Shown here: one piece after another, positions 9,481 through 34,247 of the stretch | Numbering within the stretch: position 1 is the first letter of the stretch | How the letters are laid out: each line of letters begins with the position of its first letter | DNA from: Nitrosopumilaceae archaeon | GTDB taxonomy: Archaea > Thermoproteota > Nitrososphaeria > Nitrososphaerales > Nitrosopumilaceae | DNA: 57,921 bases | Direction of reading: 5' to 3' | Assembly (NCBI GenBank): GCA_028279545.1 | Contig: JANQNN010000010.1 | Location: forward strand, 1-57,921 | Translations under genes and position numbers: made by a program | The notes under the pieces: generated by a model | The model's database searches: none | What the model saw: only the letters and a program-made list of their open reading frames with translations | What the model was told of the DNA's origin: nothing

Positions 9481-9579
9481 GCAGGGGTATCGAAGCCCGG
9501 TCAACCGAGAAGGACTCAAGATCCATAATAGGAAATCCTTTCTCTTAGGAGTTCGTGGGTTCAAATCCCACCTCCTGCA
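9481..9579 (+). tRNA. tRNA-Leu (CAA) with 14-base intron
   Basis: Class II tRNA. Acceptor GCAGGGG (9481-9487) pairs with CTCCTGC (9572-9578, one G-U), discriminator A73 at 9579. The T arm is GTGGG-TTCAAAT-CCCAC, with a long variable arm CTC-TTAG-GAG. Anticodon CAA at 9517-9519 in loop CTCAAGA, stem AAGGA/TCCTT. The stem closes only if 9521-9534 is removed, the canonical archaeal position 37/38; that segment folds as TCC-ATAATA-GGA. Mature length about 85. No CCA is encoded. Confidence 0.92.
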
Positions 9580-28572: not shown

Positions 28573-28699
28573 TGGTCCCAAGCGAAGGAATTGAACCTTC
28601 GACAACCCGGTTTCTGTATGCCTGATATGCTGTTTTTCGGTCAGCCATCTAAAGCCAACAACTACAGCCGGAAGCTCTACCAGGCTGAGCTAGCTTGGG
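28573..28699 (-). tRNA. tRNA-Tyr (GTA) with 50-base intron, CCA encoded
   Basis: On the minus strand: acceptor CCCAAGC pairs with GCTTGGG, giving the C1-G72 pair typical of archaeal tRNA-Tyr, then discriminator A73 and encoded CCA (28573-28575). D arm GCTC/GAGC; T arm GAAGG-TTCAATT-CCTTC. Anticodon GTA at 28663-28665, stem TCCGG/CCGGG with one G-U. The loop closes only after removing 28612-28661, a 50-base intron at position 37/38. Mature body is 74 bases plus CCA. Confidence 0.92.
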
Positions 28700-32594: not shown

Positions 32595-32612
32595 GTCTAA
32601 AAATGCTTGAAC

Positions 32613-33023
32613 ATGAGTAAACCTTCTGATCTTGGTTCATTAAAAATTGGTTCCTATATTTTGTTACCTCATTCAGATCAACCCAGTGGTGAACCCTGCA
32701 GAATTGTAGAATATGATACGTCAAAACCTGGAAAACACGGTGCTGCCAAAGCACGAATTGTTGCTGAAGGAATATTTGATAGTCAAAAAAGACCTCATGT
32801 GGGCCCAGTTAGCATGCAAGTCCATGTGCCTTTGATAAATAAAAAAATTGGACAAATTATTTCAATCACAGATAATATGGTCCAGGTTATGGACTCTGAA
32901 TCATTTGAAACACTTGATGTTACCTTAATTGATGACGAGGTTAAAGGAAAATTGGAAAATGGCCAGAATGTTGAATACTGGGTTGTAATGGATAAAACAA
33001 AAATAATGCGTATTAAGGGTTAA
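32613..33023 (+). CDS. eif5A: Translation factor aIF5A
   Basis: 136 aa. SH3-like N-domain with the hypusination loop SKPGKHGAAKAR (Lys41 is the modification site) and an OB C-domain ending VVMDKTKIMRIKG. It relieves ribosome stalling at difficult peptide bonds. ATG 32613 matches the leaderless promoter; a TTG two codons earlier is unlikely. Deoxyhypusine synthase is not in the window, while the diphthamide gene dph6 follows at 33.5 kb. Confidence 0.96.
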   Translation: MSKPSDLGSLKIGSYILLPHSDQPSGEPCRIVEYDTSKPGKHGAAKARIVAEGIFDSQKRPHVGPVSMQVHVPLINKKIGQIISITDNMVQVMDSESFETLDVTLIDDEVKGKLENGQNVEYWVVMDKTKIMRIKG

Positions 33024-33180
33024 AAATTCTAATTTAGTTAAGATACTAGAACAATTTTTTCATTCCTTTAAAAATTCAAAAATTCTTTTGAAAACCATAC
33101 ATTCCTGAATATTTTCAAAAAACTTGCAAATGATTAGATTATTCTTCTCAAAAAACCAACAGTGTTAAACCAAATCTAAT

Positions 33181-33190
33181 TTAAAAAATA
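33181..33190 (+). promoter_or_regulatory. TATA box for the 33.2-kb RNA gene
   Basis: TTAAAAAATA at 33181-33190 is centred 26-27 bases before base 33212, the first base of the RNA's closing helix. That is the archaeal TATA spacing and supports plus-strand transcription. Confidence 0.5.
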
Positions 33191-33211
33191 ATTTATTAAT
33201 CAATATAATTC

Positions 33212-33319
33212 GGAAGCTGACTAATGCTGGCCGCATCCTTTACGTAGTGTTGAGCGTAATCTTCACCAGTAAACCGATGCCAGTATTGACTCGATAGTGA
33301 AAATATCGTATCAGCTTCC
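33212..33319 (+). ncRNA. Candidate structured RNA with a three-way junction
   Basis: The 108-base element is closed by a perfect 9-bp helix GGAAGCTGA/TCAGCTTCC (33212-33220 with 33311-33319). Inside are a 10-bp helix (33222-33231 with 33279-33288, two G-U), capped by a TTACG/CGTAA hairpin (33240-33244 with 33255-33259), and a 5-bp hairpin CGATA/TATCG (33292-33296 with 33304-33308). A TATA box sits at -27 and a terminator 42 bases downstream. G+C is well above the surroundings. It lacks the 5S rRNA, tRNA, SRP and RNase P signatures. Class unknown. Confidence 0.7.
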
Positions 33320-33360
33320 TATCTATTGTACGTGTAAATAGAATAAAAAGAGATCATTTT

Positions 33361-33382
33361 AGGCATTTATTGCCTTTTTTTT
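33361..33382 (+). terminator. Hairpin plus U-run after the structured RNA
   Basis: AGGCA (33361-33365) pairs with TGCCT (33371-33375), followed directly by eight T. This fits termination of the RNA transcript that starts near 33212. Confidence 0.6.
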
Positions 33383-33429
33383 ATTTTTTATAGCAAGAAA
33401 CTAAAATATTTTGTAATATGACTTGGCCA

Positions 33430-33496
33430 TAGATGCTGATGATGAGCGGAAAAGCCATCTGAAATATGATGAAGATTATGAGTAATGAAGCATCTA
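33430..33496 (+). ncRNA. C/D-box guide sRNA
   Basis: Box C ATGATGA (33439-33445), 13-base guide, box D' CTGA (33459-33462), 3-base spacer, box C' ATGATGA (33466-33472), 12-base guide, then box D read as ATGA (33485-33488). The whole is closed by a perfect 8-bp stem TAGATGCT/AGCATCTA (33430-33437 with 33489-33496). Spacing matches archaeal sRNAs guiding 2'-O-methylation. The D box is ATGA rather than CTGA, which is unusual. Targets are not determined. Confidence 0.75.
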
Positions 33497-33554: not shown

Positions 33555-34247
33555 ATGAAAATTGCATCATTATTTTCTGGAGGCAAGGATAGTACCTTTT
33601 CAATTTATCTAGCAAAAAAACAGGGACATGAAATAAAATGTCTTTTAACTATTTTTCCAAAATCCGATGAAAGTCACCTTTTACATCATCCAAACTTGAA
33701 ATGGACTCGTCTTCAATCAAAATCAATGAATATTCCATTCTTAACCATGAATTCAGATTCAGATGACTCTGATCAAGAACTAGGAATCATGGAAAAATTA
33801 TTGGCTAAAGCCAAAAATGATTTTAATATTGAAGGTGTGGTGCATGGAGGAATAAAAAGTAATTTTCAAAGAGATTCATTTGAGACACTTTGCAGGAAAT
33901 TGAATTTAGAACTAATTTCACCTCTATGGAAAATAGATTCTAGGAAATATCTTGATGACTTGAATTCTTCAAAGTTTGTTTTTATTATTACAAGTGTTTC
34001 TTCTGGAGGTTTGGATGATTTTTGGCTAGGTAAAACAATTGGAAAAATTGAAATAAACAAGTTAGAAATTTTATCGGAAAAATTTAAGTTCAATCTAGAT
34101 TTTGAAGGTGGTGAAGCTGAGACGTTTGTACTGGATTGTCCCTTATTTTCAAGTCCTATTGAAATTATTAAAAAAAGAAAAAAATGGGATGGATATCGTG
34201 GAAGGTTTGAAATAATAGATGCGAGGCTAAAAAACGATGTTAGATAA
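33555..34247 (+). CDS. dph6: Diphthine-ammonia ligase Dph6
   Basis: 230 aa, PP-loop ATPase: SLFSGGKDSTFSIYLAK at residues 5-21. The family block EGVVHGGIKSNFQRDSFE and the C-terminal DFEGGEAETFVLDCPLF are diagnostic of the MJ0570/Dph6 family, which amidates diphthine on translation elongation factor 2. The stop overlaps the srp54 ATG by 11 bases, so dph6-srp54-pus10 is one transcript. Confidence 0.93.
   Translation: MKIASLFSGGKDSTFSIYLAKKQGHEIKCLLTIFPKSDESHLLHHPNLKWTRLQSKSMNIPFLTMNSDSDDSDQELGIMEKLLAKAKNDFNIEGVVHGGIKSNFQRDSFETLCRKLNLELISPLWKIDSRKYLDDLNSSKFVFIITSVSSGGLDDFWLGKTIGKIEINKLEILSEKFKFNLDFEGGEAETFVLDCPLFSSPIEIIKKRKKWDGYRGRFEIIDARLKNDVR

Follow-up and report, generated by a model that had tools for sequence, protein, structure and literature searches.

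Structured RNA element and its covariation

According to our analysis, the minus strand of the window (the whole analysed stretch of Nitrosopumilaceae DNA, 57,921 nucleotides) almost certainly carries, from 33320 to 33212, a gene of a structured non-coding RNA of about 105-108 nt. The RNA family, its strand and its structure are well supported; the family is previously uncatalogued and confined to one lineage, six genera of Nitrosopumilaceae. Taken as a whole, the best explanation, which we hold to be reasonably probable, is a lineage-restricted stand-alone RNA acting in trans as a protein-bound regulator.

The initial annotation described here an unassigned structured RNA with a distinct base composition, and both statements are confirmed: no Rfam family matches at the cut-off and pairs covary in relatives, while G+C content of 33212-33319 is 45.4% against 31.7% in the window and 20-26% in the flanks, with just 0.7% of 108-nt windows as rich in G+C. 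Folding recovers the 9-bp closing helix, both arms and the three-way junction that had been read from the letters. The fold of 33212-33319 has a z-score of -5.0 with none of 200 shuffles as good (-4.3 for the minus strand of the element), and its energy is reached by none of 1071 tiled 108-nt windows. Perfect 9-bp inverted repeats of the same span begin at 30 positions of this AT-rich window, most of the others being themselves AT-rich, and the exceptional feature is the whole fold of the element, not the closing helix alone.

When 20 copies are taken in the minus-strand sense and aligned by MAFFT, a 35-pair structure is supported, with 93.1% of cells paired and double changes at 13 pairs; none of 500 shuffles scored as high, and slid partners yielded at most 5 pairs with double changes. 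With 62 copies, 93.2% of cells are paired in the 35-pair three-way junction, and the covariation score is 0.394 compared to 0.213 +/- 0.006 in shuffled alignments and at most 0.098 for slid partners. Of the alignments used, A4 and A5 had been fitted to the model and so tend to favour the structure, unlike A2; as the 62-copy alignment is a fitted one, the independent 20-copy MAFFT alignment is the cleaner test. The covarying pairs expected in relatives are thus found, with double changes at 25 of 35 pairs in a conserved element, and the lack of conservation that the initial annotation named as counter-evidence is not seen, the element being present in all ten genus members and in 100 of 250 family genomes.

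The core of the RNA, a three-way junction at 33212-33320 (minus strand), is defined by hits of covariance models R1 and R2, by the structure on 62 copies and by G-U asymmetry, and the hits of both models place its 5' end at 33319-33320 and its 3' end at 33212. Helix I is formed by the 5' strand GGAAGCUGAU (33310-33319) and the 3' strand GUCAGCUUCC (33212-33221), with 96.6% of cells paired and double changes at 7 of its 10 pairs in the 62 copies. Hairpin II (CGAUAUUUUCACUAUCG, 33292-33308), seen in the alignment and in the 62-copy structure, takes the form ACAAU-AUCCU-AUUGU in other genera. Arm III (33227-33283), delineated in the same way, is long and irregular: its basal stem, CUGG/CCAG and CAUC/GAUG, lies below a conserved internal loop and is the weakest part of the structure (74% of cells paired in 62 copies), and the upper stems, UUUAC/GUAAA and UGGUG/CACUA, lead to a terminal loop with a UAC conserved in nearly all copies (95-100% after weighting). 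Folded alone, the minus-strand sequence of the window's copy reaches its minimum (-35.7 kcal/mol) in a structure other than the consensus (-32.7 kcal/mol). No closed reading frame longer than 22 aa lies inside the RNA in the 62 copies. A contact between AUCC and GGAU loops was considered and dropped, since it is not accompanied by covariation.

Strand, promoter and terminator

The RNA had been proposed on the plus strand; the G-U asymmetry and the conserved minus-strand promoter place it on the minus strand instead. Both strands fold, and the strand was earlier misassigned, because the closing helix (GGAAGCTGA/TCAGCTTCC) is almost self-complementary. The strand test is based on the fact that a G-U pair on one strand is A-C on the other. 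Across the family copies the minus strand has 225 G-U versus 34 A-C cells, and in the window's genus alone 21 versus 0, these cells reflecting only about four or five pairs; as G-U cells outnumber A-C cells across the family, it is the minus strand that corresponds to the RNA. The RNAalifold consensus is also stronger on this strand (-21.2 versus -16.6 kcal/mol). Energies of the single sequence slightly favour the plus strand (-36.9 versus -35.7 kcal/mol), and such energies do not decide on the strand. The minus strand has been chosen, therefore, on the G-U asymmetry, the stronger consensus fold and a minus-strand promoter locked in position.

This promoter is composed of GATC (33352-33355 in the window), located just upstream of a TATA-like box (33341-33349, TTTTTATTC region, about -22 to -30 of the RNA gene), followed by a proximal element (33325-33332, CGTACAAT region) with the family consensus RCGTAWTA, whose CGTA ends at 33329; all three are read on the minus strand. 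Among 70 distinct copies from unrelated loci, the box TTTTTATT keeps its distance from the minus-strand start, about 22-28 bases ahead of it, and its information reaches 1.4 bits per position; nearly every copy has its own promoter. The promoters of thirty tRNA genes in this genome have TTTAAWA at -32 to -26 together with an A-rich element, and they lack both GATC and RCGTAWTA. Within the 1.92-Mb genome, the gapped pattern GATC-TTTTATT-CGTA has a single match, located at the RNA (33329-33355, minus strand). An earlier ungapped search for the promoter pattern in this genome (158 matches versus 133 in the control) was uninformative because the spacing had been fixed. Transcription is predicted to start at the first G or A of GGAAAGCUGAC on the minus strand, and a T-run at approximately 33182-33190 is, from the sequence, the likely terminator; in many other copies a T-rich stretch directly follows helix I.

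The signals initially assigned to the RNA do not belong to it, as they were read for the plus strand and the RNA is on the minus one: the conserved promoter is not the plus-strand TATA box at -27, and relatives lack the hairpin with a T8 run, which in the window (about 33360-33380) is situated upstream of the minus-strand promoter. There is also a promoter-like block on the plus strand, ACCAAATCWAATTTAA (about 33169-33184, roughly -43 to -28 of the plus-strand helix), which is conserved in the window's genus and resembles tRNA promoters of the same genome. Some antisense or bidirectional transcription in this genus is therefore possible, and the block may equally belong to the 3' region of the RNA read from the minus strand.

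No position stood out as a conserved operator palindrome over 73 upstream regions. Single copies have palindromes upstream of the promoter, TTAAACATGTTTTAA in L080 and L081 and GTTTGTTTGAAA..AACAAAC in L075 and L090, which may possibly be sites of regulators and are not general in the family.

Distribution and gene neighbourhood

DNA search of 151 family genomes found the element in all ten sampled members of the window's genus and in others, and with covariance model R1, 100 of 250 Nitrosopumilaceae genomes, belonging to six genera, proved to have copies, while a class sample of 300 contained none beyond the family. For model R2, sampled members of most other Nitrosopumilaceae genera yielded nothing convincing, and the remaining phylum sample was without copies. 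Some genomes have 3-5 diverged copies according to R1. The exact family pattern has 16 matches in genome contigs, including, among named genomes, Candidatus Nitrosomaritimum khambatensis and several Nitrosopumilus sp.; two matches are bacterial and probably arose by chance. In viral contigs this pattern has no match, and BLASTN against phage records returned none. One copy, L070, scores weakly (29.5 bits), has no promoter and may be decayed. At L020:1379-1450, in a genus without model hits, the strong inverted repeat TGGAAGCTGTAGG...CCTACAGTTTCCA resembles the element at its ends but not in its interior; it may be a coincidence or a very remote relative.

In the window the RNA converges on the aIF5A gene (32607-33023, plus strand) and is flanked on the other side by DPH6, encoding diphthamide synthase (33555-34247, plus strand), which is the divergent neighbour in 10 of 10 members of the genus, while the other side varies. 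In another genus a DUF72 gene follows many copies on the same strand at a distance of about 35 nt, other copies are about 107 nt upstream of a gene with an Lrp/AsnC domain, and a transporter-like gene is a further neighbour of some. Neighbouring genes and their strands vary between genera, many of them being on the opposite strand. It follows from these differences that we deal with a stand-alone RNA gene and not with a riboswitch, and, since no single gene follows the RNA, not with a cis leader. Diverged paralogues (L066/L087, L075, L090/L091, L056/L082, L103, L104) adjoin genes for CheW, for proteins with an MCP signalling domain or for histidine kinases, and some of the diverged paralogues abut a kinase gene tail to tail.

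Comparison with known RNA classes

The initial annotation saw no RNA class with known hallmarks here, and the Rfam scans agree. At the curated gathering cut-off of Rfam 15 no family matches the RNA in the window, and scanning 33100-33450 and 20 loci of diverged copies at permissive thresholds gave no credible match over it. Models of tRNA match the window only at 9481-9579 and 28576-28699. The archaeal C/D box sRNAs are likewise small stand-alone genes, but the RNA lacks their C box (RUGAUGA in none of 62 copies). RNase P RNA (RF00373) is similar in being structured and having its own promoter, and the genome has its own copy elsewhere (C51:1569-1846, 175.5 bits).

Archaeal H/ACA guide RNAs also have a long hairpin with an internal loop and a short 3' tail, and some copies of our RNA have AAA right after the closing stem. 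However, the RNA has a second hairpin at its base and no Rfam match, and an ANA box 3' of the closing stem is not consistent: AAA is found there in many copies of two genera, and the window's genus shows GAA, TTA, AAG, AGA and other triplets. No RUGA/GA kink-turn pattern was seen in the alignment read by eye. With its promoter at a fixed distance, no reading frame and a structure under selection, the element has the marks of a stand-alone non-coding RNA gene.

Stand-alone structured RNAs have been revealed by comparative genomics before, and the 104 motifs of Weinberg et al. 2010 (PMC2864571) are likewise intergenic, with covarying structure and a function that is not known; the main text of that paper names neither Nitrosopumilus nor Cenarchaeum. 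Tan1, an abundant non-coding RNA of marine group II Euryarchaeota (PMC5069720), is also a marine archaeal stand-alone RNA, but it is reported from a different phylum. In the open-access literature (most subscription papers lay outside the search) we found no description of this RNA family, and no paper on a structured regulatory RNA in ammonia-oxidizing archaea.

Proposed function and alternative explanations

Ammonia-oxidizing archaea are among the most abundant marine cells. Clear covariation, a fixed promoter and paralogues provide defined genes, start sites and structures that can be tested in cultured Nitrosopumilus, and restriction to six genera of one family makes this a tractable case of lineage-specific RNA.

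A stand-alone, trans-acting RNA is the reading we consider likely, and several others have to be weighed against it. A cis-acting riboswitch or leader of a downstream gene would agree with the structured, aptamer-like core and with the copies placed shortly before DUF72 (about 35 nt) and Lrp/AsnC-domain genes (about 107 nt); it is nevertheless very improbable, as in the window's genus DPH6 is divergent, the RNA of the window converges on aIF5A, neighbours change between genera with many on the opposite strand, and in many copies a T-run comes immediately after the helix. Slightly less credit still goes to an RNA on the plus strand, as first proposed. The marginally stronger minimum fold, the ACCAAATCWAATTTAA block conserved in the window's genus and the T8 hairpin downstream in the window speak for it, and it is opposed by the G-U/A-C asymmetry, both family-wide and within the genus, by the minus-strand promoter locked in position across genera and paralogues, and by a terminator that is not conserved. 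The least probable is a miniature mobile element or a DNA-level repeat, in which helix I would represent terminal inverted repeats: the 10-bp inverted ends, a length of about 105 bp and several copies at different loci in some genomes resemble such elements, but the promoter, situated outside of the repeat, travels along with it, the element adjoins DPH6 in 10 of 10 genus members, and its exact family pattern is absent from viral contigs. The copies are also diverged, with compensatory and G-U-preserving changes, which argue against a mobile element since only an RNA would enforce them.

How a trans-acting RNA would work is a narrower question. Multicopy bacterial sRNA families have paralogues with different targets, and the main rival is a base-pairing sRNA of this kind, where the UAC loop, the AUCC-like loop or the linkers would pair with mRNAs and paralogues would have different targets. 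The 3-5 diverged copies in several genomes, with differing linkers and upstream regions, and the stand-alone gene with its own promoter are what such an sRNA would have. We still consider it rather unlikely, though far from negligible, because the unpaired linkers show little conservation, helix I sequesters the 5' end, and the conserved unpaired runs are all shorter than six bases. After weighting of similar copies, conservation is 0.77 in paired and 0.61 in unpaired columns; linkers are free to change, and the few conserved unpaired bases are clustered in the UAC loop, in the AUCC-like loop that caps hairpin II and, within arm III, in the G-rich internal loop. Over the 62 copies this pattern contains no long seed, and conserved loops with variable linkers fit recognition of shape better than long-seed pairing with mRNA, for which reason a protein-bound RNA is favoured. 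A protein-bound regulator rather than a base-pairing sRNA would be our preference, held at a little below even chances.

We propose that a host protein would recognise arm III, through its internal loop and the UAC terminal loop, together with hairpin II, and that helix I may close the RNA and protect its ends. A dedicated factor would read the GATC/RCGTAWTA promoter and set the expression, and the RNA itself would serve as a regulatory scaffold or a decoy for the bound protein and not as a base-pairing antisense RNA. We may even suggest, quite tentatively, a new archaeal ribonucleoprotein class, made of a multicopy RNA family of ammonia-oxidizing archaea with a promoter type of its own (GATC / TTTTTATT / RCGTAWTA); on this speculative reading some paralogues would be embedded in chemotaxis and sensor-kinase loci, and the family would form an RNA-based regulatory network without counterpart elsewhere.

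Other features of the window

The two tRNA genes of the window, at 9481-9579 (plus strand, 99 bases) and 28576-28699 (minus strand, 124 bases), were found by the Rfam model and missed by ARAGORN in bacterial mode, and their lengths suggest that both contain introns.
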